Shown here one piece after another: positions 4,745 to 20,184 of a stretch of 48,883 bases of DNA. A program made the translations under genes and the position numbers. Source of the stretch: Williamsia sp. 1135 (GTDB lineage: Bacteria; Actinomycetota; Actinomycetes; Mycobacteriales; Mycobacteriaceae); contig NZ_MJEI01000067.1 of the NCBI RefSeq assembly GCF_002095395.1, positions 1 through 48,883 of the forward strand, given 5' to 3'. How positions within the stretch are numbered: the first letter of the stretch is position 1; every line of letters starts with the position of its first letter. Below the pieces are notes generated by a model. That model made no database searches, was not told the DNA's origin, and saw only the letters and a program-made list of their open reading frames with translations.

Positions 4745-4751
4745 CTGTTGC

Positions 4752-6521: not shown

Positions 6522-6556
6522 ATATCCACCCAACTCATCCGGCAACCGAACCCTAC

Positions 6557-6587
6557 ATCTAACTACTATCCATCATAGTAGTTAGAT
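6557..6587. promoter_or_regulatory. BlaI-type operator, box A (upstream of ctaD)
   Basis: A perfect inverted repeat with 13-bp arms (ATCTAACTACTAT and its complement) and the 5-bp spacer CCATC. The core AACTACTAT-N5-ATAGTAGTT is shared by eight sites between here and 20,184. It lies between the divergent ctaD operon and the CDF gene, nearer to ctaD. BlaI/MecI/CopY-family repressors bind TACTA/TAGTA-type dyads, and such a repressor is encoded at 17430. Confidence 0.85.
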
Positions 6588-6635
6588 CCACTAGTCCGAC
6601 CAAGGGGACGGCCGCAGGCCGGGAGTCAACCACGC

Positions 6636-6658
6636 AGCTACTATCTGAAATAGTAGCT
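6636..6658. promoter_or_regulatory. BlaI-type operator, box B (upstream of the CDF exporter)
   Basis: Perfect 9+5+9 inverted repeat AGCTACTAT-CTGAA-ATAGTAGCT, differing from box A only at the second position of each arm. It is about 75 nt upstream of the CDF start and on the far side of box A from ctaD. Having two boxes in one divergent intergenic region suggests each direction has its own operator. Confidence 0.82.
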
Positions 6659-6734
6659 TGTCCATGGGTGCGGCTTCGTTCATACTTGCATACATGCGCA
6701 TATCACTATGTGTACAAGTTGAGGAGAGATGACC

Positions 6735-7664
6735 ATGGGGCACGGCCACAATCACACTCACGCCGCACTGGCCCCTGGCGAGGCCGCCAGCGCGTCGGGT
6801 CGACATGTCCGGCGTCTGGCGATGGCGTTGGGCCTGGGGCTGATCACGCTGGTAACCCAGATCATCGTCGGGTTCGCGACGTCATCGTTGGCGCTGCTGT
6901 CCGATTCGGCCCACGTCTTCACCGATGTGCTCGGCGTGTTCATGGCCTTGGCCGCAGTGTTGTTGGCCAAGCGCGGCACCTCACGGACCGATCAGACCTT
7001 CGGTCTCTATCGCGCCGAAGTCTTTGCCGCACTATTCAATGCAGCGCTACTGTTCGTGGCCGCCGGCTGGATTCTCTATGAGGCGGCCCAGCGCTTGTCT
7101 GATCCCCCCGAGGTGCCTGGCCTTCCTGTGGTGCTGGTGGCCTTGGTCGGCCTGGCGATGAACATCATCGCTTTTCTGTTGTTGCAGTCCGGAGCGAAAG
7201 AGAGCATCAATATTCGAGGCGCGTACCTCGAGGTGATGGCCGACATGATCGGTTCGGTCGGTGTGCTGCTCAGCGGTCTGGTGACGCTCCTATTCGGGTG
7301 GCGGTATGCCGACCCCCTGATCGGTGTCGGTATAGGCTTGTTCGTGTTGCCGCGCGCCTACACCCTGGCGCGTGGAGCGTTGCGGATCCTGTTCCAGCAC
7401 GCGCCGTCGGGTGTCGACGTCGATCAAGTGCGCGCGGACCTGGTCCACCTGGACGGCGTTGTGCAGGTGCATGATCTGCACGTGTGGACCTTGACCTCGG
7501 GGATGGAGGTGGCCTCGGCCCACATCGTGGCGAAGCCGGCCGCCGACCACTCCGCGGTCCTGCTCGCGGCGCAACAGATGCTCGCCGGCAAGCACCACCT
7601 CGAGCACGCGACCGTGCAGGTCGAGCCGGTATCGGGCTCGGGTTGTCACGAACTTACCTGGTGA
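6735..7664 (+). CDS. Cation diffusion facilitator metal exporter (CzcD-like)
   Basis: Predicted membrane antiporter exporting Zn2+, Cd2+ or Co2+. It has about 309 residues: a His-rich N-terminus (GHGHNHTH), six hydrophobic segments and a cytosolic C-terminal domain with the HDLHVW motif typical of CDF proteins. The TM2 metal site reads SDSAHVFTD (HxxxD). The TM5 equivalent reads LEVMAD, with Glu where zinc-selective members have His, so metal preference may differ. I prefer the ATG at 6735 because GAGGAG lies 8 nt upstream; an in-frame ATG at 6729 is too close to it. Box B lies upstream. A dyad-rich stretch containing ATGCGCAT (6694-6701) lies between box and gene and could be a second regulatory site. 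Confidence 0.92.
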   Translation: MGHGHNHTHAALAPGEAASASGRHVRRLAMALGLGLITLVTQIIVGFATSSLALLSDSAHVFTDVLGVFMALAAVLLAKRGTSRTDQTFGLYRAEVFAALFNAALLFVAAGWILYEAAQRLSDPPEVPGLPVVLVALVGLAMNIIAFLLLQSGAKESINIRGAYLEVMADMIGSVGVLLSGLVTLLFGWRYADPLIGVGIGLFVLPRAYTLARGALRILFQHAPSGVDVDQVRADLVHLDGVVQVHDLHVWTLTSGMEVASAHIVAKPAADHSAVLLAAQQMLAGKHHLEHATVQVEPVSGSGCHELTW

Positions 7665-7687
7665 CCTGCCCTGCCGATGTCGGCTCG

Positions 7688-7960
7688 CTATCGGGGCGCT
7701 GAACCGCGGCGCTCGTTGCGGTGGGCGTCCACGGCGGCGATGCCCTCGTTCACTCGCGCCCGCAGCGGTCGTAGGAAGGTTGCCGACGCCGCCAGGGCGA
7801 CAACGAGTCCGCCCGCCATGGCCAGGAGGATCGGTAGATCGAGTGTCAGAGCCCGGGCACCGAAGTAGAGCGCGATGACTGTCACAACGACCGTGGCCAT
7901 CCGGGCGCCGTTGAGAATCAGCACGTCGCGGATCAGTCGACGCGTGACGGATTCACTCAT
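7688..7960 (-). CDS. Small membrane protein, DUF4229-like
   Basis: A 90-residue protein with two hydrophobic segments (about residues 20-36 and 43-62) followed by a basic tail. The layout resembles small actinobacterial DUF4229-type membrane proteins, but I see no diagnostic motif. It is the last gene of a leftward group (ctaG, lipoprotein thioredoxin, 8303 gene, this gene) and converges on the CDF exporter 24 nt away. Function unknown; in this setting it may help assemble or stabilise a respiratory complex, which is a guess. Confidence 0.6.
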   Translation of the reverse strand: MSESVTRRLIRDVLILNGARMATVVVTVIALYFGARALTLDLPILLAMAGGLVVALAASATFLRPLRARVNEGIAAVDAHRNERRGSAPR

Positions 7961-7997
7961 AAGGCAAAGACTCGTCCTGACGATAGTTGCACTGGTG

Positions 7998-8303
7998 TCA
8001 CAGATCGCGGACCGGCAGGCCCAGGGTGGCCAGCATCAGGATAAAGAGCGCCCAGCCGACGCCTTGCCATAGAGGCCACAGGCCGCCGCGCTGCCACGCG
8101 CGATAGGTGTGGACGAACGCGCCGAGCCCACCGAGCATGAAGACGGCCGGTGCGCAGAACCCCCAAAATCGGGAGTCGGTTTGCCGGTAGGCCACCAGAA
8201 ATCCGATACCTACCAGGACAAATACTCCCAGGTAGATCGCTCCCGCGCGGACCGCCCGCGGGTTGCTCCAGTCTTTGTCGGTGTCGCTGTTGTCAATGGT
8301 CAT
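7998..8303 (-). CDS. Small polytopic membrane protein, unknown function
   Basis: About 101 residues with an acidic N-terminus (MTIDNSDTDKDWSNP) and three hydrophobic segments separated by short loops. I chose the ATG at 8303; an upstream in-frame start would add residues without hydrophobic or conserved character. It lies 37 nt upstream of the DUF4229-like gene and 83 nt downstream of the lipoprotein thioredoxin gene on the same strand, so it probably belongs to the operon headed by ctaG. No family recognised. Confidence 0.65.
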   Translation of the reverse strand: MTIDNSDTDKDWSNPRAVRAGAIYLGVFVLVGIGFLVAYRQTDSRFWGFCAPAVFMLGGLGAFVHTYRAWQRGGLWPLWQGVGWALFILMLATLGLPVRDL

Positions 8304-8386
8304 GGTGGCCCTATCGGTTGAACGGAAAGTCGGGGTGCGCACTGGGGGTGTCCACGTGACGTCGTCATCTCGTGCCCGGCGGACCG

Positions 8387-8995
8387 TTAGGGTTCGGCGG
8401 CGATGCGCTCGACCCTCTGGCGCAGCTCGTCGGCGGTGATCGCGCGCAGGTAGACAGCCGCGGCGCGGTGGCGCCGGTCGAGGACCACCGTGGTGGGTAC
8501 CACTGAGGTTGGTGTGGTCAGGGTGGCCAGCGTGCGCCCGTCGTAGTCGTAGATCGACGGGTAGGTCACGGCGCGGTCGGCGACAAAATCCCGTCCGGAC
8601 TCCTTACGGTCGCGGAAGTCGATGCCCAAGAACGCTACCCCCAAGTCTTTGGTCTGCTCATACACTTGTTCCAAGGCTGGGGCCTCTCCGCGGCATGGCC
8701 CGCACCAGGACCCCCACACATTGATGACCACCACTTGGCCGGCGAAGTCGGACAGCCTGATCGTGCTGTTGTCGTCGAGCAGATCTGGGCCCATGAGTTC
8801 ACCGACCTGACCGCGCGAGTCCGGTGGATCATAGAAAATGACGGTTTGGCCGCCAGGTGAGACGAACTCGAACGAATCACCCTGTTGCACTGCATCATCA
8901 CCGGTGCCACAGGCCGTCATCACCCAGGCAAGTATCGCCACTGCTACAGCAATGAACCTGCCCGGCCTGTTCTCTTCCCGCCGCCAGCTCATCAT
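8387..8995 (-). CDS. Lipoprotein thioredoxin (TlpA/ResA/CcsX type)
   Basis: About 202 residues with an N-terminal lipoprotein signal ending in a lipobox-like VMTAC near residue 25, then a thioredoxin-like domain with active site WCGPC and the preceding VVINVWGSW strand. Predicted to be anchored outside the membrane and to reduce disulfides in apocytochrome c or in the oxidase copper site. The ATG at 8995 overlaps the ctaG stop as ATGA. Being a lipoprotein, it would be a client of the lspA and lnt encoded upstream. Together with the tlpA-like gene at 3540-4250 the module has two extracytoplasmic thioredoxins with different anchors. Confidence 0.88.
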   Translation of the reverse strand: MMSWRREENRPGRFIAVAVAILAWVMTACGTGDDAVQQGDSFEFVSPGGQTVIFYDPPDSRGQVGELMGPDLLDDNSTIRLSDFAGQVVVINVWGSWCGPCRGEAPALEQVYEQTKDLGVAFLGIDFRDRKESGRDFVADRAVTYPSIYDYDGRTLATLTTPTSVVPTTVVLDRRHRAAAVYLRAITADELRQRVERIAAEP

Positions 8996-9993
8996 CGGCG
9001 AGAACCGAGAGTGCGGAGAAAGTTGTTGTAGGCCTCGAGATCCTCGGCGTCTTTCACCTCGTCGTAGTCGTTGGGTGAGGTCACCGATTTCTCTTCGTCG
9101 CGTCGCCATCGAGAGGCGAAGATCAACACGATCAGCAGCGCCACCGGTTCCCCGTAGGACCAGGCCAGAGCGCCGGCGACCGCTTGATCATCGACGGGGT
9201 TGATCCCCCACTGCGGCGGCGGGTCCGCGAAGCTGGCGACCAGCACGGTCGGAGCCATCATGAACACGACTCCGAAGAACACGTGCAGCGGCATCTCGAG
9301 GAAAATGTCGAGGAGCCGGCCCAAATTGGACTGGCGCATCGGTAGGGGCCCAATCGAGAGAATCGGGATGATGAACAGCAATCCGCTGACCAGGAAAAAC
9401 ACTTCCATCCCGGTGTGTCCCAGCCAACTGTCGTTGAGTGTGTCGAAGATCGATGAGAAGTACAGCCCGTAGAAGCTGAACAAGAACACCGGGATCGCAA
9501 ACCCTGGGTGCAGCGCGATTCTGCTGACCCGCGAGCGCGCCATCCGCAGCGTCGCCCGGCGCATCCGGCGGCCTCTGCCCTCGTCGGGAACGGCCGCGAA
9601 CAGCAGCAGCCCCGGGGAACCCATCACCAGCAGCGGCGGTACCAGCGTCGAAAGGGTCATGTGCTGAAACATGAAAGCGCTGAACAACCCCACGCCGTAT
9701 CCCTCGATGGCCAATCCGGTCACGGCCGACAAGATCAGGCAGCCAGAGAGAAAGCTCAGCGACCGGTACCACGGCCACGGTCGGCCGAGATGACGAAGCC
9801 GCGCCAACCCGAGACAGTAGATGGCGGCGAGGACGAGGCCGAGGGTGGCGAGCAGCGGGATCGGGGGCAGATCCCACCGCATCATGCCCATGATGGTCGG
9901 CGGAGCGTCAGGAACCTCGAGCACCACAGCACCGTCCTCACCCGACTCTGTTGTCCCCTCGCCCGGCACCCCAGCGGTACCGGGCAGGGACAA
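8992..9993 (-). CDS. ctaG: CtaG-family (caa3-type) cytochrome c oxidase assembly protein
   Basis: Predicted polytopic membrane protein of the caa3_CtaG family, implicated in copper delivery to haem-copper oxidases. The chain has about seven hydrophobic segments and the conserved FMFQHM and MEVFFLVSGLLF-like stretches. The C-terminus (DLEAYNNFLRTL) resembles the tail fragment at the left window edge. The listed start is a TTG at 9993, close to operator box C; the first about 34 residues look low in complexity and ATG starts near 9891 (MGMMRWDLPP) are a good alternative. It heads a leftward group with the lipoprotein thioredoxin and is divergent from the DsbA-VKOR pair. Confidence 0.88.
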   Translation of the reverse strand: MSLPGTAGVPGEGTTESGEDGAVVLEVPDAPPTIMGMMRWDLPPIPLLATLGLVLAAIYCLGLARLRHLGRPWPWYRSLSFLSGCLILSAVTGLAIEGYGVGLFSAFMFQHMTLSTLVPPLLVMGSPGLLLFAAVPDEGRGRRMRRATLRMARSRVSRIALHPGFAIPVFLFSFYGLYFSSIFDTLNDSWLGHTGMEVFFLVSGLLFIIPILSIGPLPMRQSNLGRLLDIFLEMPLHVFFGVVFMMAPTVLVASFADPPPQWGINPVDDQAVAGALAWSYGEPVALLIVLIFASRWRRDEEKSVTSPNDYDEVKDAEDLEAYNNFLRTLGSRR

Positions 9994-10003
9994 AACACAC
10001 GTA

Positions 10004-10026
10004 AACTACTAGGCATCTTAGTAGTA
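10004..10026. promoter_or_regulatory. BlaI-type operator, box C (ctaG / DsbA-VKOR divergent region)
   Basis: AACTACTAG-GCATC-TTAGTAGTA. The heptamers ACTACTA (10005-10011) and TAGTAGT (10019-10025) are a perfect dyad; the innermost and outermost bases vary. It sits in the short divergent region between ctaG (start 9993) and the leader ORF at 10047, so one operator could control both directions. Confidence 0.8.
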
Positions 10027-10046
10027 CGGCGACAGGAGTGAGCGAA

Positions 10047-10094
10047 GTGCCAGTTCAGACCCCTCAAATGCCAGCCGAGCAGGCACGTCCGTGA
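10047..10094 (+). CDS. 15-residue leader peptide coupled to the DsbA gene
   Basis: A GTG at 10047 has a good ribosome binding site (AGGAG at 10034-10038, 8 nt away) and opens a 15-codon frame whose TGA stop overlaps the GTG start of the DsbA gene as GTGA. The DsbA gene itself has no comparable Shine-Dalgarno, so ribosomes finishing the leader may re-initiate on it. The peptide (MPVQTPQMPAEQARP) has no recognised signal. It could be a plain coupling device or the vestige of an earlier start. Confidence 0.45.
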   Translation: MPVQTPQMPAEQARP

Positions 10095-10732
10095 GCCGCA
10101 ATCTTAAGGTCTCACTCGCAGTGGTGTTCGTGTTCTGTCTTACGCTGACCGTGGTGTTCGTGGTCTCACGAGCCGGCGGTACCGGTAAGGCAGAACAGTC
10201 TGCAGCGCCCGTCCGGGCCGATTCGCAACGGCTGTCGGCACCCAGCGACTCCAAGGCGACGTTCGTGGAGTTCTTGGATTTCGAATGCGAAGCGTGCGGG
10301 GCGATGTATCCCACCGTCGAGCGACTGCGCCAGACCTACGGCGACCAGGTCACGTTTGTGGTCCGCTACTTCCCGCTGCCGGGTCATTTCAACGGCGACC
10401 GCGCAGCGCGGGCAGCTGCGGCGGCAGCGCAACAAGGTCGGTTCGAGGCAATGTACAAGAAGCTGTTCGAAACCCAGCAGCAGTGGGGCGAGCAGCAGGA
10501 GCCACTCGATGAGCTGTTCTCCAGCTACGCACAAGAACTCGGCCTGAACATGGAGCAATACGCGGTGGACTACAACTCCAAAGCCACCCGAGAACTCATC
10601 GACCGCGATATCGCCGACGGTAAAGCTCGCGGGGTGAGCGCCACACCCACGCTCTATATCAATCACACCGCCGTCGAACCCGGCAGCTACGAGGAGCTGA
10701 GCTCAGCGCTCACCTCCGCGATGGCGAAGTGA
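10091..10732 (+). CDS. DsbA-family extracytoplasmic thiol oxidoreductase
   Basis: About 213 residues: an N-terminal membrane anchor or signal helix (residues about 6-27), a linker and a thioredoxin-fold domain with a DsbA-type helical insertion. The active site CEAC sits in FLDFECEACGAMYPTVE and the cis-proline loop is GVSATPTLYINH. Predicted to introduce disulfides into exported proteins. The GTG start overlaps the leader peptide stop, and the 3' end overlaps the following VKOR gene, which would re-oxidise it. The pair lies behind operator box C. Confidence 0.9.
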   Translation: MSRNLKVSLAVVFVFCLTLTVVFVVSRAGGTGKAEQSAAPVRADSQRLSAPSDSKATFVEFLDFECEACGAMYPTVERLRQTYGDQVTFVVRYFPLPGHFNGDRAARAAAAAAQQGRFEAMYKKLFETQQQWGEQQEPLDELFSSYAQELGLNMEQYAVDYNSKATRELIDRDIADGKARGVSATPTLYINHTAVEPGSYEELSSALTSAMAK

Positions 10733-11343
10733 CGAGCTCAACAGCCCCACTGACACCTCAGCAGTCAGTACTGTTCCCGCAGTTGCTTTCCTGGGTCCTT
10801 GGTGTGTGCGGGGCCGTAGGTTTGGTCTCGGCATTCACCCTGACGGTCGAAAAGTTCGAACTGGCAACCAATCCCGGCTATACACCAACCTGCAGCATTA
10901 ACCCGATCGTCAACTGCGGCTCGGTGATGGACACCCCGCAAGCCTCTGTGTTCGGGTTTCCCAACTCACTGCTCGGTATCGCTGGCTTCGCCGCTCTGAC
11001 CACTGTCGCAGCTTTGGTGGGACGCCGCCCAGCCCGATGGGTGATGATCGGTCTGCAGGTGGGCATGACCGCAGCTTTGGTCTTCGTGCATTGGCTGATC
11101 GTGCAGAGCCTGTACCGCATCGAGGCGCTGTGCCCATACTGCATGGCTGTGTGGGTGGTTGTTGTGGTGGCCTTTTGGTACGTGAGTCTGCGCACCGCCG
11201 ACAGTTACTGCCCTCCTGGCCTGCTGCGTCGTGCACTCGATACCATCCTGGCGGTTCATTCTCTAGGACCCGTGCTGTGGGTGCTAGCGGTGATCGCTCT
11301 AATTACCGAGCGGTTCTGGTGGTATTGGTCAACGTTGGTGTGA
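10729..11343 (+). CDS. Vitamin K epoxide reductase (VKOR) family protein
   Basis: Predicted membrane quinone-dependent disulfide generator, the actinobacterial counterpart of DsbB. It has 204 residues with about five hydrophobic segments. Two cysteine pairs expected of VKOR are visible: the loop pair in TCSINPIVNCGSVMD and the active-site pair CPYC in LCPYCMAVW. The GTG start overlaps the DsbA stop (GTGA). DsbA and VKOR adjacent and coupled form a complete oxidative folding pair. Confidence 0.93.
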   Translation: MTSSTAPLTPQQSVLFPQLLSWVLGVCGAVGLVSAFTLTVEKFELATNPGYTPTCSINPIVNCGSVMDTPQASVFGFPNSLLGIAGFAALTTVAALVGRRPARWVMIGLQVGMTAALVFVHWLIVQSLYRIEALCPYCMAVWVVVVVAFWYVSLRTADSYCPPGLLRRALDTILAVHSLGPVLWVLAVIALITERFWWYWSTLV

Positions 11344-11401
11344 TTGCGGCGTCGTCCGCATCCAGGCACTCTCCCGCTTCCCCTGGCGGACAGGAACTGC
11401 C

Positions 11402-12217
11402 TCAGATGGGCAAGGTCATGTTGGTGACGAACATGTCCCGTACCCATACAACGAAGTAGTCCCAGATACCGGTGATCAGCGCAATTCCCACGATGATCAT
11501 CAGGACTCCACCCACAAGCTGGATGCGGCGCGAGTTGCGGCGCAACAGTCCGACCGCTCGCACCGCCCACACTGAACCGAAGCCCAACACCACAAAGGGG
11601 AGCCCTAGGCCCAGGCAGTACGCCACGATGAGCACCACGCCACGGGCGGCGGTGGTATCTGCGGTGCCGCTGGCCGTGGCGATGATGGACGCCAGTGTCG
11701 GACCCAGACACGGTGTCCATCCCAGCGCGAAGACCGCGCCCAACAGCGGCGCACCCACCAGACCCGAGACTTTGCGTGGGTGAAATCTGACCTCGCGTTG
11801 CATCGCGGGGAAGGCGCCCAAAAACACTAGGCCCATCACGATGGTCACCACCCCACCGATGCGCTGCAAGAGTTCCCGGTTGATCGTCAGTGCTGAGGTC
11901 ACCCCGAAGACAGTCGCCGTCGCCAGCACGAACACCACTGTGAAACCCAGAACGAACAGCAGTGCGGCACCGCCCACGCGCCACTGCGCCCGGCGCTGGC
12001 TGTGAACCGAGACACCGGCGGCCGAGGACGGTGTGGGCTGCGATATGGCCGCGGCCCCGGTGAGACCGGCCAGGTAGGACAGGTAGCCCGGTACCAGTGG
12101 GATCACACACGGCGAGGCGAAGGACACCAGTCCCGCCACCGCACACGCGCCTATTGCCAGCAGCACTGGCCCACCAGAGACCATTGAGGAGAACTGCTCC
12201 CCCACCGATGCAGCCAT
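11402..12217 (-). CDS. ccdA: CcdA-like cytochrome c biogenesis / thiol-disulfide transporter
   Basis: Predicted membrane protein that carries electrons from cytosolic thioredoxin to extracytoplasmic thioredoxins such as the two TlpA-like proteins in this window. About 271 residues, six or more hydrophobic segments. Signature cysteines lie in FASPCVIPLVPGYLSYL and ALGWTPCLGPTLA, one in each half, as in the DsbD/CcdA core. I chose the ATG at 12217 (GGAG 10 nt upstream); a GTG directly before it is equally possible. A longer frame to 12280 lacks a ribosome site. Operator box D lies upstream and is shared with the divergent acyltransferase. Confidence 0.92.
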   Translation of the reverse strand: MAASVGEQFSSMVSGGPVLLAIGACAVAGLVSFASPCVIPLVPGYLSYLAGLTGAAAISQPTPSSAAGVSVHSQRRAQWRVGGAALLFVLGFTVVFVLATATVFGVTSALTINRELLQRIGGVVTIVMGLVFLGAFPAMQREVRFHPRKVSGLVGAPLLGAVFALGWTPCLGPTLASIIATASGTADTTAARGVVLIVAYCLGLGLPFVVLGFGSVWAVRAVGLLRRNSRRIQLVGGVLMIIVGIALITGIWDYFVVWVRDMFVTNMTLPI

Positions 12218-12299
12218 CACGCTGTGTCTCCACACTCCTGTTGGTTCATTGTCGACACCCCCATCGTGGGTGTGTGGCATGACCGGACATCTACCAGAT

Positions 12300-12326
12300 G
12301 CAACTACTATGCACGATAGTAGTTGC
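12300..12326. promoter_or_regulatory. BlaI-type operator, box D (ccdA / acyltransferase divergent region)
   Basis: Perfect 11+5+11 inverted repeat, GCAACTACTAT and its complement around GCACG. It sits between the divergent ccdA and acyltransferase starts and is as symmetrical as box A. Confidence 0.85.
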
Positions 12327-12393
12327 TATCACTGTAGTGAGGCTTCGTCCGTGCAGTTGTACGGCGGCGCGGGCCAGAGAGCGAGGACATCCC

Positions 12394-14590
12394 GTGGCAC
12401 GACCGGTCATCGGGGTCGCAGTACGCGACAGGCAGCCGCCGGGATCGGCAGCACAGAAGGTCGCGCATCGTCTCGATCTCGATGGTCTGCGCGGGGTCGC
12501 GATCATGCTGGTCGCGTGTTTTCACATCTGGTTCGGGCGGGTTTCGGGCGGCGTTGATGTTTTTCTGGTTCTGTCCGGCTACTTTTTTGTCGGCTCACTG
12601 CTGCGAGAGGTCACCGCGGCCCAGTCGCCGGTGGTGAGGTGGTGGCCTGCGGTGTCCCCCCCTCCCCCGATTGGTGCGGCTGGGGCGGCGCCTCCTGCCG
12701 ACATTGGCACTCGTACTGATCGCTGTCGTCGGCGCCACAATACTGCTGCTTCCCCAGACCCGGTGGCTGTCGACCGGACGCGAAGTGGTGGCAAGTACGC
12801 TGTACTACCAAAATTGGTACTTGGCGTTCAATTCTCGCGATTACACCGCTGCCAGTTCGGTGAACAGTCCGCTGCAACATGTCTGGTCGATGGCGGTACA
12901 GGGTCAATTCTTCGTGATCACCCTATTCGCAGCGCTGGGTATCGGGGTGCTGCTCAAGTGCGGGGGCCGCATCCTCACGCCGGTACTGGCGCGCCCCGTA
13001 GTGGTGCAGGTGGTCGCTGCCGCCGCCATCCTGGCGGTGGCGGCGATGTCGTTCTACTGGGCAACGATGCGGATGTCGGTCAACCAGTCCTTCAACTACT
13101 ACGACACCATTGCACGCGTTTGGGAACCGTTGACCGGAGGCCTGCTGGCGGTGGTGGCGCCGACCATCGCAAGCTTCTGGGTCCGTAGCCTGCTGGCGAT
13201 CACGGGTCTGGGGCTGATCCTCACCAGCGGTTGGTGGATTGACGGCTTGACCAGTTATCCGGGTCCGTGGGCCTTGGTACCGGTGGCGGCCACGGTGGCG
13301 CTGATCGTCGCGGGGAGCCCGCCGGCATCGGTCTCGACCACACCACCGCTGGTCAATCGGCTCCTCGCCACCGGCGTTCCCGTCTGGTTGGGCGCGATAG
13401 CTTACGCGTTGTACCTCTGGCACTGGCCAGTCCTGATCTTCTACTTGTCTTGGCGAAAGATCAACGCGGTCAGCGTCGTCGACGGGCTCATCGTGTTGGG
13501 CACATCCATTGCGTTGGCATGGTTGACCTGCCGCGTCGTCGAAGTACCCCTGCGGGCGAGGCCGTCGGCACCTCGATCTGCCCTCGCCCGCCCCGAGACC
13601 GGGCCGCAGGAGCGGTCTGGCCACACGGCCGCTGCCCAGACGCGGGTCACCGTCGGCCTGCTCGTGGTTGGCGTCCTGCTCAGCGGCGTCGGGATCAAGG
13701 TCTGGGAACGCCACGTCGCCGCCATCCGGGTCGATACCACCAACCTGGATCCGCGCATCTATCCCGGCGCTCGCGCGCTGCTGACGGGTGCACCTGTGGC
13801 CACGGTGGACCCGGTACCCTCACCGCTCGAGGTGGTCAAAGACCTGCCCGTCACATCGTTTGAGGGGTATATCAGCGGCTTCGACGATTCCACCGTCCGC
13901 GTCGGCACGTACGGTGATCGCACGGCCACCCACACCATCGCCCTGGCCGGCGGTTCGCACGCCGAGTTCTGGATCACCGCGCTCGATGCACTCGGAAAGC
14001 AGAACAATTTCAAGGTCAAGACCTATCTCAAGATGGGTTGCCCGCTGTCCACCGATCCGATGCCCACCCAGCGCGGAGTCCCCTACCCTGGCTGCGCTGA
14101 CTGGGTGCGGGAAGCGATGAATCAGATCCTCGCCGACCGTCCCGATGCGGTGTTCACCAACACAACCCGTCCCCGAGATGACGCGCCCGGCGACTGGGTT
14201 CCTCCCACCTATCTGCCCATTTTCGCTCAGTTCGCCTCAGCTGGAATACCGGTGCTGGGTATGCGCGATACGGTGTGGCCCCATAACGCGGCCGGCCTTA
14301 TCGACACCCCGTCGTGCTTGGCCGACGGCGGCAACGCCGAAACCTGCGGAACGCCTCGACAGTCAGCGCTCTCTCCCACCAACCCCACCCTCGATATCAT
14401 GGGCACAGACTCCACCATTGCCCCGTTGGACCTGTCGGAAGGGTTCTGCGACGAGGACCTGTGTCCGGCAGTCATCGGCAATATCGTGGTCTACCACGAT
14501 GTTCATCACCTCAGCGCCACCTTTGTCCGCAGCCTCGCACCTGAGTTGTGGCGGCAGATGACTACGGCGCTGCCGTGGTTGGCGCAGTAA
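12394..14590 (+). pseudogene. Acyltransferase-3/SGNH (OafA-type) membrane protein with a frameshift in a C7 run
   Basis: Two consecutive frames together make one acyltransferase-3 plus SGNH protein of about 730 residues. The first (GTG at 12394, GAGGA upstream) has the family start LDLDGLRGVAIMLVACFH and GGVDVFLVLSGYF. The second carries the remaining helices (LYLWHWPVLIFYL), then an extracytoplasmic SGNH-like domain ending at 14590. They join at a run of seven C (12656-12662): removing one C gives WPAVSPLPRLVRLGRRLLP, the expected basic stretch before the next helix. OafA-like proteins acylate cell-envelope glycans. Whether this is a sequencing error, a dead gene or a slippage switch cannot be decided here. 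Confidence 0.85.
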
Positions 14591-14621
14591 TTGCCTACCA
14601 CTTTTTATTTTCTCGTGACGT

Positions 14622-14661
14622 AGTGCTTCCCGGGGCACCGGGCGAGTCTCACTAAAGCACT
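14622..14661. terminator. Possible bidirectional terminator hairpin
   Basis: AGTGCTT (14622-14628) pairs with AAGCACT (14655-14661), enclosing a smaller hairpin CCCGG/CCGGG. It lies between the convergent acyltransferase (ending 14590) and L,D-transpeptidase (ending 14662) genes. A T-rich run (14611-14621 region) flanks it only on one side. Confidence 0.4.
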
Positions 14662-15924
14662 TCAGAGCGCGCTACCTTCTAGCCAGACATCCCAGGGGAC
14701 GCTCCAGTCACCGTTCTGCCATTGGGCAAGGGGCTCACCACCGGTGTTGCGGACTTCCACGATGTCTCCGGGCACAGAGAAGTCGTAGAACCAGCGGGCG
14801 TTGTCCGGATTGAGGTTCAGGCACCCGGCGGACATGTTGGTGTTTCCTTGTTGGGCGATGGTGTCGGTGAGTTCGTGCAAGTAGATGCCGTCGTTGCTGA
14901 TCCGGGTCGCGTAGTTGATGCTCTGGCGGTAGCCCAGACGCGAATTGACCGGTAGTCCGTAGGTGGAGGAGTCCATGATGACGGGGTTGGCCTTGTCGAG
15001 CACGGTGTAGATGCCCCGCTGAGTCCAGAAGTGGATGGTCCGCCCGTTGACGGTTTCGGTGCCCCCGCGTCCCATGGACGTCGGCATCGTACGGACCATC
15101 TCCCCATTGTTGAACACGGTCACCTGTTTGGTGGTGTCGTCGGCAATGGAGACATGCGAGTCGCCGATGACAAACGATCGGGCAAGGTCTTCTTGCCCAT
15201 AAAGCCCATTGCCCAGGTCGACCCCGTAGATGTCGGCGCGCACAGCCACCGCGGTGCCCGGCGGGTAGTACTCCTGGGGCCGGTAGTGCACATTCTGGTC
15301 ATCGACCCAGCTCCACTGCCCCTGCACCGGCGGCTCGGTCTGCACCGACAGACACCGCTGCGCGGCGGCCCGGTCCGGGATGGGTTCGTCGAACTTGATG
15401 ACCGCGACCACTCCCACGCCGTAGGTCGCGCCCTCGGCGAGCGTTCCCCCGCCGGTGGACACCAACGACGCGGTGGTGAGGTTGTCGGGCTTGACGGTGC
15501 CGAACGAACTGATGACCTCGTTGCTGCGGCCGGTGTCGTCACGACTGGTCACCGCCAGTTGGTAGGTCCTGTCATAGCCCAGCGGGGTCTCGGGTTTCCA
15601 CGTCACCGCGTCAGGGGTCATGATGCCGGGAATGACCCGGCCTTGATCGTTGGTCATGACCACCTCCGACAACGTCCCCCCGGCAACGGTGACCAAAACC
15701 GCGCCCAGCGGATCAAACCCTTGGGTGCCCGGGGCCGGAGTGAAGGTGACCGCTCCCCCCGGTACCCCCGCGACAGCGGGCGACGAGCTCGCCGACGAGG
15801 TGGACAGGGGCGAGTTGTTTGTTGAGCAGGCCGCCAGGAAAGCGGCAGCTGCCGCACCTCCACCTAGTGCCAACAATCCCCGCCGATTGATCTGGACATC
15901 AGCCATACGATGGCGCTCTGGCAC
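14662..15924 (-). CDS. L,D-transpeptidase lipoprotein (LdtMt-like)
   Basis: Predicted cell-wall enzyme that makes 3-3 peptidoglycan cross-links. The 420 residues start with a signal carrying a twin-arginine-like NRRGLLALGG and a lipobox LAAC, then two Ig-like domains and a YkuD catalytic domain in the last about 150 residues. The active-site region reads HELTD...NTNMSAGCLNL: the nucleophilic Cys is present, but the histidine of the usual SHGC motif is Ala. The GTG start has GAGGAG 8 nt upstream, and the half-degenerate operator box E lies 25 nt before it. It is divergent from the M23 peptidase-BlaI-M56 operon. Confidence 0.9.
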   Translation of the reverse strand: MPERHRMADVQINRRGLLALGGGAAAAAFLAACSTNNSPLSTSSASSSPAVAGVPGGAVTFTPAPGTQGFDPLGAVLVTVAGGTLSEVVMTNDQGRVIPGIMTPDAVTWKPETPLGYDRTYQLAVTSRDDTGRSNEVISSFGTVKPDNLTTASLVSTGGGTLAEGATYGVGVVAVIKFDEPIPDRAAAQRCLSVQTEPPVQGQWSWVDDQNVHYRPQEYYPPGTAVAVRADIYGVDLGNGLYGQEDLARSFVIGDSHVSIADDTTKQVTVFNNGEMVRTMPTSMGRGGTETVNGRTIHFWTQRGIYTVLDKANPVIMDSSTYGLPVNSRLGYRQSINYATRISNDGIYLHELTDTIAQQGNTNMSAGCLNLNPDNARWFYDFSVPGDIVEVRNTGGEPLAQWQNGDWSVPWDVWLEGSAL

Positions 15925-15948
15925 TGGTTACGCTCCTCAACCACGCAC

Positions 15949-15971
15949 TACAACTAAGACTCCTAGTAGTT
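15949..15971. promoter_or_regulatory. BlaI-type operator, box E (degenerate, upstream of the L,D-transpeptidase)
   Basis: TACAACTAA-GACTC-CTAGTAGTT. The right half matches the consensus at 8 of 9 positions and the left half at 6 of 9. The spacing fits the other boxes, and the position just upstream of the transpeptidase supports it. Confidence 0.6.
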
Positions 15972-16143
15972 TACGGACAAGCGCATGGCGCCCGCCGCGT
16001 CGAACCCCGGCGAGGGACCCAACTCTTCCCGCCAGGGGCGGCGCTCCCCGCCCACCCCCGGTGCCCATCCCAAATGACCGCACCCCTGCCTGGTCCGTCT
16101 CCCCGCTGCGACACAGCCCAACCTTGGCCTGCCCCGAGAAGTG

Positions 16144-16166
16144 AAAAACTAACCAACATAGTAGTA
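16144..16166. promoter_or_regulatory. BlaI-type operator, box F (upstream of the M23-blaI-M56 operon)
   Basis: AAAAACTAA-CCAAC-ATAGTAGTA: right half 8 of 9, left half 6 of 9, degenerate in the same way as box E (both left halves end in ACTAA). It would give autoregulation of the repressor. TAACCT at 16165-16170 could serve as a -10 element overlapping the box. Confidence 0.62.
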
Positions 16167-16201
16167 ACCTGTTCGAGTCCTGCCCGATATCACTTTGTTG
16201 C

Positions 16202-17386
16202 ATGGCCCGACTTGAACTGAAGGACCTTCACTTGGCACGGCACCGCAGACCCGACCCCGCCCCACATAACGCCCGCGACACGTCGCTGCGCGGACCGCTC
16301 GGCACCGCACCACCTCTCCCGCACCTCGCCGGCGGCCAGTCATTACCGGCCCGGCCACGTCCGGGCCGCCACCGGCCCGCGGTACTCGAGCCCCGCCCGC
16401 TGGTCTCCGCGCCGCCGCAGTCCTCGCGGCGACCGAGCGAGCCGCACCCTGCCCAGGCTCGCCGGCCGCACACCCGCACACCCGCACCGGGTACGGGCGC
16501 CACCCCTGTCAGGCACCGTCCCCAGCCGCCGGCCCCATCGCGCGGCGGTTGCAGCGTGCAGTCGGTGGCGACCGCGCCGTGGGAGCGGGCGGTGTGCGCC
16601 CAGACCGACCGCAGCCCAGATGGGGTGTCGAGCTACTGCGAGCAACTCGACCAGCGGCACGAGCGCGGCAGCAGCGCAGTCACGCGGTCGGCCGGTATCA
16701 GCGGATCGCTGGTGGCTGCGGTGGTCTTGCTCGCAGCGGGCGGTACCGCAGCCACCGCGCTCACCCATGAGCCTGAACCGGTGGCCGAACCCGTCGCACG
16801 CACCGTGACCGCGGCCGGACCGACCGCGAGTTCGCAGCCCGGCGCCGTGCGACCGGTCAGTACCCAGCAGAGCTCCGCCGTCGAGGTGGCCCCGGCGGCG
16901 CCGCCCGCGCCGCTCGATGCGTTGACCACTGCCATCGAGGACCTCGTGGCCCAACGAGGCCGCCCCGCCCCGCCTGAACCCACCCCGCCGCCCCGGTTGG
17001 CCTCGGCAGCACCGACGTACGGCACCGTCACCTCCAGCTACGGCTCCCGTTGGGGTACAACGCACTACGGTCTCGATATCGCCAACGTCATTGGTACTCC
17101 GGTGGTTTCGACCAGTGACGGGGAGATCATCGAGTCTGGCCCTGCGGACGGGTTCGGGCTGTGGATCCGGGTGCTGCAGGACGACGGCACGATCGGGGTG
17201 TACGGACATATCAACGAGACCCTGGTCAGTGCGGGTCAGCGGGTGCAGGCCGGTGAGCAGATCGCCACCGTCGGTAACCGCGGCTACTCCACCGGCCCCC
17301 ATCTACATTACGAGGTCTGGCAAAGCGACGGCCTCAAACTCGACCCCGCGCAGTGGCTTCGCAATCGAGGGGTCGACCTCGGATGA
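16202..17386 (+). CDS. M23 family metallopeptidase (LytM-like), membrane anchored
   Basis: The C-terminal about 110 residues are a LytM/M23 domain with zinc-ligand motifs HYGLD (about residue 288) and HLHYE (about 367), so it probably cleaves peptidoglycan cross-bridges or activates another hydrolase. A single hydrophobic segment lies at about residues 165-185. The 160 residues before it are Pro/Arg/His-rich and may be a disordered cytosolic tail. The ATG at 16202 lacks a clear ribosome site but is about 35 nt after box F, so a near-leaderless transcript is possible; a GTG near 16625 is an alternative. The gene is 43 nt upstream of the BlaI-like repressor. Confidence 0.82.
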   Translation: MARLELKDLHLARHRRPDPAPHNARDTSLRGPLGTAPPLPHLAGGQSLPARPRPGRHRPAVLEPRPLVSAPPQSSRRPSEPHPAQARRPHTRTPAPGTGATPVRHRPQPPAPSRGGCSVQSVATAPWERAVCAQTDRSPDGVSSYCEQLDQRHERGSSAVTRSAGISGSLVAAVVLLAAGGTAATALTHEPEPVAEPVARTVTAAGPTASSQPGAVRPVSTQQSSAVEVAPAAPPAPLDALTTAIEDLVAQRGRPAPPEPTPPPRLASAAPTYGTVTSSYGSRWGTTHYGLDIANVIGTPVVSTSDGEIIESGPADGFGLWIRVLQDDGTIGVYGHINETLVSAGQRVQAGEQIATVGNRGYSTGPHLHYEVWQSDGLKLDPAQWLRNRGVDLG

Positions 17387-17429
17387 GGCGCCGGTGGACG
17401 ATCACCCAGCCAGTAGAGACAATAGAACG

Positions 17430-17789
17430 ATGAAGCAGCTGGGCACGCTCGAAGCCGACGTCATGGAGCTCGTGTGGGACGCCGCTCCCGAACAGTTGTC
17501 GGTCCACGACATCCTCGCGGCGATGGCTGACCGGCAGTTGGCGTACACCACTATTTTGACCGTGGTGACCAATCTGCACAGCAAGGGCTTTCTGACCAGA
17601 ACCAAAGTGAGCCGCGCCTACCATTACACCGCCACGAACACCCGAGAGCAGGTCACCTCCCAGGCGCTGCGCGACATCCTCGACTCCAGCGACGACCCCA
17701 CCGCAGTCCTGATGCATTTTGCGCGCACTGCCACTCCGGAGGAAACCGATGCACTCCGCAGAAACCTTCCCCGCAAGGCCCGCAGGTGA
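17430..17789 (+). CDS. blaI: BlaI/MecI/CopY-family transcriptional repressor
   Basis: 119 residues beginning MKQLGTLEADVMELVW, the family start, with a winged helix-turn-helix over residues about 5-75 (recognition region AYTTILTVVTNLHSKGF) and a C-terminal dimerisation helix pair. Family members repress by binding TACTA/TAGTA-type dyads and are inactivated by a cognate membrane metalloprotease. The protease gene follows with a 4-nt overlap and eight candidate operators surround the gene. In M. tuberculosis the homologue controls beta-lactamase and ATP synthase genes. No beta-lactamase occurs in this window, so the inducing signal here is open. Confidence 0.92.
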   Translation: MKQLGTLEADVMELVWDAAPEQLSVHDILAAMADRQLAYTTILTVVTNLHSKGFLTRTKVSRAYHYTATNTREQVTSQALRDILDSSDDPTAVLMHFARTATPEETDALRRNLPRKARR

Positions 17790-18763
17790 CGCTCGCGGCC
17801 ACGTTGGCCCTGGCTGCGGTCCTGATCGGGGTCGTCATGCCCCGGGTGCTGGCCATGCAGCCACTCGCAGTTCCCCCGCGCCTGATGATGGTCGGGTGGC
17901 TAGCGAGCATCGCGACCTTCTTTTTCCTTGCGTTATCGGCGGGCGTGGTGGTGGCCTGGCCCGATCACGCTCCGGCCGAAAGTCTGACCGACATATGGAT
18001 TCGGTGTCTGAGTTCGGCGCAGCACACCATGGCGCCCTGGGTGTCGGAGATCGCGGTCGGCGGGGTCGCTGTTGTAGCGGTCTTCTTCTTGGGTCGTTTC
18101 ACCGCAGTAGGACGCCGGCAGCGCCGCTCGCGGACCAAGATTCGCGGCTACCACGACGATGTCCTGACCGTTCTCGCACGAACTAGGCAGGATCCGGGCA
18201 GCCGCTACCGAGAGCTATGGCTCGATCATCCGTTGCCGTTTGCCTATAGCGTCGCCGGCAGCCCCGGCCTGGTGGTCGCCACCGAAGGCCTCTACACGTG
18301 CCTCACTCCCACCGAGGCAGCAGCAGTCCTCGAACATGAGCGAGCTCATCTGCACGGGCGCCACCACCGCATCGTGGCGCTGAGCGCCCTGCTGGCGCGA
18401 ACGCTGCCGATCGTCCCGCTGCTGGCCCGCGCACCTGGCGCACTGGCGATGCTCGTCGAACTCGACGCCGACCGCGCAGCGGCCCGCACCACCAGCCGCG
18501 CGGCAGTCCGCTCGGCGTTGTGCCGGGTCCTCCAACAGCAGGCCACCAACCCGACCATGCACGGCGTGGGTTATCACGCCGCCGCACACGACATCCAGAC
18601 AACCAACGACCGGCGCCTGCACGTCCTCGCCGCAGAGACCTCCCCGAGCCCGCGGCCTCTGACCTACGCAGCGGCGGCAGTGCTGCCGATAGCAGGCGCG
18701 GCCCTAGCGGCCACCATCTCTATGGCCGCTGCCTCGGCCGCCTACTGCGCACTCATCGCCTAG
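17786..18763 (+). CDS. M56-family membrane metalloprotease (BlaR-like, no sensor domain)
   Basis: 325 residues with about four hydrophobic segments and a zinc motif HERAH near residue 183, in the cytosolic loop arrangement of BlaR1/MecR1 proteases. It ends soon after the last helix and lacks the extracellular penicillin-binding sensor of classical BlaR1, like the short M. tuberculosis homologue. The GTG start overlaps the blaI stop (GTGA), so the two are translated together. The predicted role is to cleave or destabilise the BlaI-like repressor in response to an unknown envelope, redox or metal signal. Confidence 0.9.
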   Translation: MTLAATLALAAVLIGVVMPRVLAMQPLAVPPRLMMVGWLASIATFFFLALSAGVVVAWPDHAPAESLTDIWIRCLSSAQHTMAPWVSEIAVGGVAVVAVFFLGRFTAVGRRQRRSRTKIRGYHDDVLTVLARTRQDPGSRYRELWLDHPLPFAYSVAGSPGLVVATEGLYTCLTPTEAAAVLEHERAHLHGRHHRIVALSALLARTLPIVPLLARAPGALAMLVELDADRAAARTTSRAAVRSALCRVLQQQATNPTMHGVGYHAAAHDIQTTNDRRLHVLAAETSPSPRPLTYAAAAVLPIAGAALAATISMAAASAAYCALIA

Positions 18764-18808
18764 CGGCATCTGATCCGGCAACCCCGAGATGCGAAGCTGC
18801 GCATGGTC

Positions 18809-19414
18809 TCAGCGCCGGCCCGAGCCAACGAAGATCGCACCAATCATGACCAAACCCACCATGACACCGCCGCCGAGGACCAGCAGCATCCCGTCATCCC
18901 CCAGTGCGCGGCCATACGATTGCTCGGCCGCCGGCCGAGCATCAGAAGTCGGCACGGTCACGACACCGTCAGGAAGATCTAGGGCTCCGTCGGGCCCGCT
19001 TGTCTCGCCTGTGCTTGCGCGCACCACGAAGTTGATTTCCCCGACCAGCCGATGACCGTCGGCGGAGGTCACGCTGTAGCTGATCACGTACCACCCCGGT
19101 GGGGCCGCACCCACCACCGACGCCCTCACCGATGGCCCAGACACCACCGCCGGGGCCAGTCGCAGTGCGCCCTGGCCACTGGCCAAACTCACCGAGACCA
19201 CGGTGTCGGACACCTGATGACTAAAGTCCAATTCGATCACCCGGGGCGCTTCCGGCAGCTCTGAGCCCGAGGCGGGCATTGATGACACCAGGAAGGTGTG
19301 CGCCGCCGCAGGGCCCGCACCCACCACCAGCCAGCCGGCCGCACCGACCACCCACAACAAGGCCGCGCCTGCCCGCACCACGGCCATTCTCACCCGGGGT
19401 GCGATAGCCGTCAT
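18809..19414 (-). CDS. CopC-domain protein with C-terminal membrane anchor (1)
   Basis: 201 residues: a signal peptide ending AAAH at about residue 38, a CopC beta-sandwich and a C-terminal helix followed by a basic tail. After cleavage the first residue would be His, which in CopC proteins forms the histidine-brace copper site. A second conserved His lies in SADGHRLVGE. Predicted to bind Cu(II) outside the membrane. The ATG at 19414 is 8 nt from operator box G; an ATG at 19387 with GGGTGAGA upstream is an alternative. It is the nearest paralogue of the CopC-like protein at 19519-20154 and converges on the M56 protease gene. Confidence 0.88.
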   Translation of the reverse strand: MTAIAPRVRMAVVRAGAALLWVVGAAGWLVVGAGPAAAHTFLVSSMPASGSELPEAPRVIELDFSHQVSDTVVSVSLASGQGALRLAPAVVSGPSVRASVVGAAPPGWYVISYSVTSADGHRLVGEINFVVRASTGETSGPDGALDLPDGVVTVPTSDARPAAEQSYGRALGDDGMLLVLGGGVMVGLVMIGAIFVGSGRR

Positions 19415-19421
19415 CGCCTAA

Positions 19422-19444
19422 AACTACTAGACGTCATAGTTTTT
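19422..19444. promoter_or_regulatory. BlaI-type operator, box G (upstream of CopC 1)
   Basis: AACTACTAG-ACGTC-ATAGTTTTT. The left half matches the consensus at 8 of 9 positions and the right half at 7 of 9. It abuts the start of the first CopC-like gene in the gap between the two copC genes, so each paralogue can be controlled separately. Confidence 0.7.
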
Positions 19445-19518
19445 GCTGCCAAATGGCGAACGTTTCAAACGCCCCTGCCCGCTTGGTCACCCACCGGATA
19501 GGCCGAACACTCCGTACA

Positions 19519-20154
19519 TCAATTACCGTCGTCGGTTCCTGGCCGGTCTGTCGGATCCTCATCAGAGTGGCGGCGTGAACTAAAGAGCAACAGACCACCA
19601 ATCGTGGCCAACCCCAGCACGACAGCGATGATTACCACCACCACGATCCAATTCGACTCCAACGAGCCATCAGGGTCATCGCCCCGATGGGCGTCCTGGG
19701 CGGGCCTGTCGGTAGCCGAGGCGCTGCCCGGGATCGCCGGCGCTACCCCCTCTGCACTGGTGGCGGTCACACCTGCGGCGACGGTAAAGGTGAACTCTCC
19801 GGTGATGGGGTGCCCGTCCGCAGAAACCACGCGGTATCCCACGGTGAAACCACCTGCAGCGAGACCGGCGGGCAGACGGGCAGTTACGACGGGCCCTGCC
19901 ACAGAGGGTGCTGAGACCTCGACCTGAGCGTCGGTGCCGTCGCGCACCGCGATGGTCGCGAAACTCTCGGAAATGTCCTGATTAAAAACCAACTCGATCG
20001 AGGTGGGCGGCTGCTCAAGGACACTGTCGGCGGCCGGATTCGACGAGACCAGTGAACTATGTGCCGCCGCCGGCCCGGCACCCAGACTCAGACCCAGTGC
20101 CACGAACGCGAGGCCAACAATCATTTTGCACACACGTGCCGCCGAGGAAACCAT
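19519..20154 (-). CDS. CopC-domain protein with C-terminal membrane anchor (2)
   Basis: 211 residues: a signal peptide ending AAAH near residue 32, a CopC domain with NQDISESFATIAV and SADGHPITGEF, a Ser/Thr/Asp-rich linker and a C-terminal helix (WIVVVVIIAVVLGLATIGG) with a basic, acidic-ended tail. The mature N-terminal His and the DGH histidine are the expected copper ligands. It probably holds periplasmic copper for delivery to oxidase or for protection. The ATG is only 7 nt from operator box H, so promoter and operator must overlap. The CopD partner often seen with CopC is not adjacent, although the fragment at the left window edge may be one. Confidence 0.88.
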   Translation of the reverse strand: MVSSAARVCKMIVGLAFVALGLSLGAGPAAAHSSLVSSNPAADSVLEQPPTSIELVFNQDISESFATIAVRDGTDAQVEVSAPSVAGPVVTARLPAGLAAGGFTVGYRVVSADGHPITGEFTFTVAAGVTATSAEGVAPAIPGSASATDRPAQDAHRGDDPDGSLESNWIVVVVIIAVVLGLATIGGLLLFSSRRHSDEDPTDRPGTDDGN

Positions 20155-20161
20155 CCCGCCA

Positions 20162-20184
20162 AACTACTATAAATGATAGTAGTT
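20162..20184. promoter_or_regulatory. BlaI-type operator, box H (upstream of CopC 2)
   Basis: Perfect 9+5+9 repeat AACTACTAT-AAATG-ATAGTAGTT. It is the last of the eight boxes and ends the regulon region; no further copies are seen to the right. Confidence 0.84.

Follow-up and report, generated by a model that had tools for sequence, protein, structure and literature searches.

Gene content of the cluster

The stretch analysed here (the window) comprises 48,883 nt of Williamsia sp. 1135 and represents one entire contig (C44) of a 5.98-Mb, 107-contig genome. It harbours a gene kit in which second copies of envelope systems lie beside copper proteins, and in which a recurrent dyad is strongly supported, by sequence comparison, as the putative operator at which the BlaI-type repressor of the same cluster would act, holding down the M23-blaI-M56 operon along with genes for extracytoplasmic machinery. 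The gene set and the BlaI assignment given in a preliminary description of the window proved correct, and the genes are as follows, identified by domain scan unless stated otherwise.

274-1875, minus strand: lnt, apolipoprotein N-acyltransferase
1876-3543, minus strand: resB, cytochrome c biogenesis
3540-4502, minus strand: tlpA-like thioredoxin
4250-5002, minus strand: lspA, signal peptidase II
4752-6545, minus strand: ctaD, extra aa3 oxidase subunit I (the likely start is an inner ATG near 6521)
6729-7664, plus strand: CDF cation exporter
8387-9109, minus strand: thioredoxin-like protein
8992-9993, minus strand: ctaG, oxidase copper assembly factor
10091-10732, plus strand: DsbA-like oxidoreductase
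10729-11343, plus strand: VKOR, DsbA re-oxidant
11402-12280, minus strand: ccdA (26.7 bits, slightly below the Pfam cut-off of 27.1)
12298-14590, plus strand: AT3-SGNH acyltransferase (AT3 part assigned by eye)
14662-15924, minus strand: L,D-transpeptidase (Big_10-YkuD)
16202-17386, plus strand: M23 peptidase, first in the regulator operon (Pfam)
17430-17789, plus strand: BlaI-type repressor (Penicillinase_R), cysteine-free (Pfam and structure-sequence match)
17786-18763, plus strand: M56/M48-like membrane zinc protease, proposed sensor (HExxH at 184-188, Cys74, Cys321, no penicillin-binding domain)
18809-19414, minus strand: copC-a
19519-20154, minus strand: copC-b

Copper handling is represented in the kit by CopC, CtaG and the CDF exporter, and in relatives also by CopD-CtaG. 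The acyltransferase gene contains a frame switch near 12650, i.e. a true frameshift or a sequencing error.

Putative operator dyads in the window and in a second cluster

The dyad AACTACTAT-N5-ATAGTAGTT, with the putative operator core ACTAT-N5-ATAGT, was found by a search of the window at all eight coordinates previously claimed for it. The sites, each supported by pattern and matrix and given without strand, are the following.

6561-6583: operator dyad, 0 mismatches, between ctaD (minus) and the CDF gene (plus)
6636-6658: operator dyad, 2 mismatches, 5' of the CDF exporter
10004-10026: operator dyad, 3 mismatches, between ctaG (minus) and dsbA (plus)
12302-12324: operator dyad, 0 mismatches, between ccdA (minus) and the acyltransferase gene (plus)
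15949-15971: degenerate operator dyad, 4 mismatches, 5' of the L,D-transpeptidase gene
16144-16166: degenerate operator dyad, 4 mismatches, 5' of the M23-blaI-M56 operon (presumed autoregulation)
19422-19444: operator dyad, 3 mismatches, 5' of copC-a
20162-20184: operator dyad, 0 mismatches, 5' of copC-b

A plain pattern search allowing up to three mismatches returned six dyads in the window against none in 100 shuffles. Using a scoring matrix built solely from six sites of the paralogous contig C99, all eight window dyads scored 26.6-36.9 and the next-best window site 10.3, in agreement with the earlier statement that the window holds no further copy, and scores stayed at or below 19.1 in 200 Markov simulations of the window. 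Across the whole genome, the three-mismatch search gave 12 dyads, six in the window and six on C99, and a reversed-pattern control gave none; the genome-wide scatter that had been named as grounds for abandoning the regulon is thus not seen, all 12 being confined to two BlaI clusters. A chance origin of the dyads is rejected on the basis of the shuffles, the reversed-pattern control, the matrix scores and the Markov simulations.

The distance from dyad centre to likely start codon is 19-82 nt in nine site-gene pairs (starts chosen by hand, that of ctaD by its inner ATG, with the acyltransferase start outside the set), and the described placement at gene starts holds as measured. The coverage of ctaD-lspA-tlpA-resB-lnt stands in part: ctaD has a dyad, whereas the window has no separate dyad for lspA, tlpA, resB or lnt, and dyad control of these four would require co-transcription with ctaD.

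The two dyad clusters are colinear, each with its own BlaI-M56 pair, and a matrix trained on the window finds eight sites on C99 at scores of at least 24.8, followed by the next at 16.4. Identities of the C99 paralogues to the window proteins are 96% for BlaI and CtaD, 93% for M56 and the L,D-transpeptidase, 89% for CcdA, 87% for CDF, 86% for CtaG and CopC-b, and 81% for M23. By protein comparison, a counterpart of the acyltransferase is absent from the C99 cluster, and copC-a of the window shares just 34% identity with the sole copC of C99. One C99 site, at 59979 (score 24.8), faces no visible gene and is perhaps the remnant of a lost copC; a ParA-like gene, recognised by eye, lies 5' of the module at C99 41001-80544 (L016 and L017), which may be a plasmid or island.

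Several kit functions occur repeatedly in the genome, with two copies of ResB, four of LspA and three of COX1 plus one weak match. Copies outside the clusters are located on C54 (ResB), C76 and C101 (LspA) and C43 (ctaD), the last being 87% identical across residues 4-280 and truncated by the contig end. The kit CtaD itself aligns over residues 17-574 of 597 with subunit I of the mycobacterial supercomplex.

The repressor and its co-occurrence with the dyad

The window BlaI matches Penicillinase_R (PF03965) with 79.1 bits against a cut-off of 22.6, and scores 33.8 bits with TIGR02698, below the cut-off of 121.95 for CopY membership. Cysteines are present in eight of 54 distinct BlaI relatives and a CxC motif in none. 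CopY-type copper sensing by the window BlaI is rejected because the protein has no cysteine. Its closest solved structure by sequence is 2g9w (E 7e-13), which we take to be Rv1846c.

Among nine genomes of the same genus, dyads are found in all six with this BlaI and in none of the three without, two of which (G002 and G004) do have a chromosomal BlaI. In a wider set of 101 genomes, BlaI relatives (E <=1e-15) are present in 53 and dyads with up to two mismatches in 12; the latter occur in 11 of the 19 genomes with a BlaI at least 45% identical as compared to one of the 82 without (Fisher 5e-9, with an identity cut picked after the data were seen and with related, hence not independent, sequences). 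The scan of related genomes proposed in the preliminary description finds dyads that co-occur with BlaI-M56 and lie at gene starts in relatives and plasmids, and the idea of a BlaI regulon is backed by this co-occurrence and placement.

That another regulator of the island binds the dyads, with BlaI as a bystander, is hardly credible. The window and several plasmids do carry ArsR and MerR genes close by, but the dyads track this BlaI over genomes and are located 5' of the BlaI operon in the window, as often in relatives and plasmids.

Searching 84,980 species, each represented by one genome, for the exact dyad yielded 36 stretches. Kit genes or BlaI-M56 are contained in 11 of the 13 actinomycete stretches (tblastn), and kit proteins have no match in the other 23 (10 Clostridia, 6 Bacteroidota, 4 Bacilli and 3 others). 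One exact dyad (L059) lies 5' of a gene for a DUF305-like protein, recognised by eye, and a perfect dyad in Mycobacterium uberis (L052, 4424-4446) lies on a stretch without clear genes, kit gene or BlaI match. Of 300 genomes, 31 contain a shorter exact pattern, the control giving no hits; in four stretches chosen among these from multi-megabase contigs, the dyads adjoin BlaI-M56 in three and an M23 gene without BlaI in one. A further 19 stretches from relatives contain 60 sites scoring at least 20, mostly among the same genes, with sites lacking an adjoining kit gene in L105, L106 and L114.

In L109 (G033:C9), a dyad precedes tlpA-trx-ccdA on a contig other than that of the sole BlaI relative at the cut-off, which suggests control in trans. 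L131 (G130:C1) is a small version on a 4.7-Mb contig with dyads around BlaI-M56, L,D-transpeptidase and TlpA, and five genomes of its genus share its exact 19-base site.

Plasmid loci and recurrent targets

The regulon is an accessory kit, often plasmid-borne in soil bacteria, in several genera of Mycobacteriales, and is wider than the preliminary description had seen. BlaI relatives were found on 103 plasmid records, from which 15 loci totalling 431 kb were picked by hand, and numerous plasmids of Rhodococcus, Gordonia and their relatives carry similar islands. DNA is shared with part of a 15.5-kb stretch by 129 records, and the 20 matches listed all lie at ctaD. Over the 15 loci, a spacer of 5 gives 57 sites at a score of at least 22 and any other spacing at most 10, 14 of the 16 off-spacing sites overlapping a 5-spacer site; the matrix thresholds of 18, 20 and 22 used here were picked after the data were seen.

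Gene starts were counted in 13 annotated loci, leaving out L126 and L127, which have no site of at least 18. Of the 69 sites at or above 18, 67 are intergenic, against a mean annotated coding fraction of 78% (the gene tables of the plasmid collection are incomplete, and 'intergenic' may cover unlisted genes), and 66 face a gene start within 450 bp. The starts served are those of M23 (12), CtaD and CopD-CtaG (10 each), TlpA and CDF (7 each), CopC and DsbA (6 each), Lnt (4), and DUF3105, L,D-transpeptidase and BlaI (3 each), with single starts for LspA, Lgt, CtaA, CcsB, a Rieske protein, ArsR, TIGR03118, DUF4229 and one hypothetical gene. The three plasmid transpeptidases are annotated only as Ig-like, and share 36-64% identity with that of the window across most of the length of the latter. 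On the plasmids, the kit often has multicopper oxidase and P-type ATPase genes as neighbours.

The neighbourhood of the kit includes arsenic genes in the window and on one plasmid, an alkylmercury lyase on one plasmid and a cadmium transporter on one, as would be expected of a general kit against thiophilic metals (silver, mercury, cadmium, arsenite) with a sensor responding to any soft metal or thiol oxidant through its cysteine pair. We consider this alternative rather unlikely, given that CopC and CopD-CtaG, both copper families, rank among the commonest targets in the 13 loci, and that no arsenic or mercury resistance gene is marked by a dyad, with one ArsR/P-ATPase pair facing a site shared with dsbA.

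On a Rhodococcus aetherivorans plasmid (L120, 27039-29890), a dyad faces the gene for the lipoprotein enzyme Lgt at 401 bp, with a plasmid GAPDH gene on the opposite side; in other bacteria, copper is known to target GAPDH.

The M56 protease as candidate sensor

The likely sensor of the system is the M56 protease, through a coupled cysteine pair that is predicted outside the membrane. The window protein has 325 residues and ends after its last helix, its M48 domain scores 34.4 bits versus 20.3, and a Pfam scan detects no penicillin-binding sensor domain. By hydropathy, the protease domain is preceded by three hydrophobic stretches and a further one closes the protein, in agreement with the helices of the AlphaFold model (mean predicted local distance difference test score, pLDDT, of 77). 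The 36 residues from 105 onward, after the third stretch, include 10 Lys/Arg; this segment should hence be inside, which in turn puts the loop between transmembrane segments 2 and 3 outside. The C-terminus would be outside as well, provided that residues 195-224 span the membrane an even number of times or not at all. This segment is flanked by HExxH (184-188) and by the conserved E225 and D229, likely zinc-site residues, and these must share one side.

Across the window M56 and four homologues at 28-33% identity, the invariant residues include HExxH, Cys74 in the loop and Cys321 in the tail, and no other cysteine. In 41 distinct M56 proteins encoded beside BlaI, all with HExxH by selection, both cysteines are present in 29, the loop cysteine is combined with a tail histidine in three and with an altered tail in one, and the remaining eight lack the loop cysteine (accepted within three alignment columns), with a tail cysteine in none of them and a tail histidine in one. 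The coupling of the two cysteines is significant (Fisher 5e-6, sequences related), and the exchange of cysteine for histidine fits a metal ligand better than a disulfide. The AlphaFold model is poor at both cysteine regions.

Alternatively, the system may respond to the cell wall or to beta-lactams as in staphylococci, with M56 sensing wall damage, perhaps through the M23 product. This agrees with the top rank of M23 among the targets, with 12 of the starts that the 69 sites serve, and with the L,D-transpeptidases among the targets, yet M56 has no penicillin-binding domain, the majority of targets are not wall genes and beta-lactamase families are absent from the 30 window proteins scanned, which makes such a response very unlikely.

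Comparison with known systems

A separate BlaI-M56 pair, with a BlaI 39% identical to that of the window, is located on contig C65 near IMPDH, 6-phosphogluconate dehydrogenase and urease genes, in a gene order that we take to be that of M. tuberculosis Rv1843c-Rv1850. No dyad at up to four mismatches is found in 14 kb around this pair, and its M56 is among the eight without the loop cysteine. M. tuberculosis BlaI (Rv1846c, beside Rv1845c) thus resembles the window BlaI as its closest solved structure by sequence, and differs in that its apparent counterpart is the C65 pair, without nearby dyads or cysteine pair. The window BlaI as orthologue of M. tuberculosis BlaI is rejected, since the apparent orthologue is on C65 and no dyad is there. 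For this reason, and because the window M56 lacks a penicillin-binding domain, the bridge drawn earlier from M. tuberculosis BlaI to beta-lactam response and ATP synthase is not supported. The tie of M. tuberculosis BlaI to ATP-synthase genes, as given in PMC12565901 and PMC7924339, concerns the other BlaI.

The closest parallels in architecture are BlaI-BlaR1 and MecI-MecR1 of staphylococci, where a BlaI/MecI-fold repressor shares an operon with a membrane zinc protease and operators are palindromic. In MecI-MecR1, moreover, the sensor protease releases a replacement target, mecA being among the genes released. In contrast to BlaR1 and MecR1, the window M56 has a cysteine pair instead of the penicillin-binding domain, and the regulon spans many promoters with copper and respiratory targets. 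The operators differ as well, as ACTAT-N5-ATAGT is found here rather than the staphylococcal TACA/TGTA, and this core does not fit the CopY cop operator, RNYKACANNTGTMRNY / KACANNTGTM, both as reported in PMC7253601. CopY/CopR copper repressors belong to the same Pfam family and share a probable copper theme, but the repressor studied here has no CxC metal motif and has a protease partner instead. CpxAR-NlpE of E. coli operates by two-component signalling rather than a repressor and protease, and we know of no spare target copies in it. It is similar in being an envelope copper-stress response involving lipoproteins and disulfides, according to PMC6593411.

Antibiotic resistance is the main setting in which BlaI with a membrane protease has been described, and a relative appears here to govern respiration, copper and envelope. 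A description of this regulon was not found in the open-licence literature as covered in part by titles and abstract openings, nor was an open-licence paper combining BlaI, M56 and copper.

Proposed response to copper stress

Based on the gene content, a response to copper or thiol stress would fit the cluster better than the beta-lactam/ATP-synthase link, with copper as the presumed signal. We propose the following mechanism. In the uninduced state, BlaI would hold down its own operon and the kit. Copper binding or thiol oxidation at the two outer cysteines of M56 would then switch on the cytoplasmic protease, which would destroy BlaI and so release the entire kit. The second copies could subsequently stand in for copper-poisoned envelope enzymes, i.e. 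the cell would replace targets and not depend on export alone.

The duplicated systems would accordingly be copper targets, namely cytochrome oxidase, cytochrome c biogenesis, disulfide formation, lipoprotein maturation and L,D-transpeptidation. Cytochrome c assembly is reportedly a key copper target, judging by the title of work by Durand in 2015. Copper further blocks the first lipoprotein acylation step, inhibits L,D-transpeptidases and causes wrong disulfides, as stated in PMC6593411, and the reading of the kit as spare parts derives from this overlap between its functions and reported copper targets. The full reading, with a BlaI operator, a copper-stress kit and a cysteine-pair switch in M56, appears to us moderately probable. 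We propose more tentatively, and with some doubt, that the protease represents a BlaR-like subfamily which has lost the beta-lactam domain, senses extracytoplasmic copper or thiol state through the cysteine pair and, by destruction of BlaI, releases a mobile replacement kit.

A different role of copper, namely its shortage, is considered unlikely. In such a starvation regulon, an oxidase short of copper would lead to release, and CopC, CopD-CtaG and CtaG would import copper for the replacement aa3 oxidase. CtaD, CtaG and CopD-CtaG are indeed oxidase or oxidase-assembly genes, CtaA and a PCu(A)C chaperone are found in addition on one plasmid, and a role in copper import has been suggested for YcnJ of Bacillus subtilis (PMC13344008). 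Starvation nevertheless leaves unexplained the lipoprotein, transpeptidase and CDF members, as well as the proximity, on several plasmids, of multicopper oxidases and of genes for arsenic, cadmium or mercury.

Several observations weigh against the copper-stress mechanism. As to gene content, the copC/copD/ctaG set would serve copper delivery under starvation equally well, the window contains arsenic genes as well, and the L,D-transpeptidase of the kit seems by eye to retain its cysteine and would then be copper-sensitive, too. Multicopper oxidase genes have no facing dyad and a P-type ATPase gene has one once, via an ArsR gene, which makes both neighbours of the kit and not established targets. 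Some of the starts served lie outside the theme of the kit (MMPL, DUF5134 and antitoxin, two each; AMP-binding, SulP and TVP38, one each). As to the operator, no -35 box that would show an overlap of operator and promoter is found at a consistent offset in 101 oriented sites, the best offset having 13% of them within two mismatches of TTGACA; the reversed-pattern control hits two of the 101 genomes, once each; and eight of the 19 genomes with a BlaI at least 45% identical have no dyad at two mismatches. Pseudonocardia L126 (no sites) and Streptomyces L127 (none at 18 or above) lack dyads despite a cysteine-pair M56, hence the sensor is at times found without the operator. As to the sensor, hydropathy also flags residues 195-224 inside the protease domain, so that the topology is likely and not certain; pLDDT is below 50 at Cys321 and about 66 around Cys74; and the fold matches include BlaR1 (8exr, probability 0.98, E 0.056) and, as best, Ste24p (E 0.044), with none at E 0.001.

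If the copper-stress mechanism is true, target replacement may be a way for bacteria to withstand a metal. The principle of replacing what copper breaks could account for the joint carriage of ctaD, lnt, lspA, ccdA, dsbA and L,D-transpeptidase genes on metal-resistance plasmids, and the system offers an answer to the question of which signal may be perceived by BlaI-M56 pairs that have no drug-sensing domain.

Neighbouring features of the window

Beyond the cluster, the segment 23175-39288 contains a MerR gene, arsenic resistance genes (ACR3-type, low-molecular-weight phosphatase and ArsA) and a phosphate-type ABC system with an OmpR-type regulator, some of these names being assigned by eye. 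Two tyrosine-recombinase genes of the phage integrase family at 41820-45460 suggest a mobile segment.

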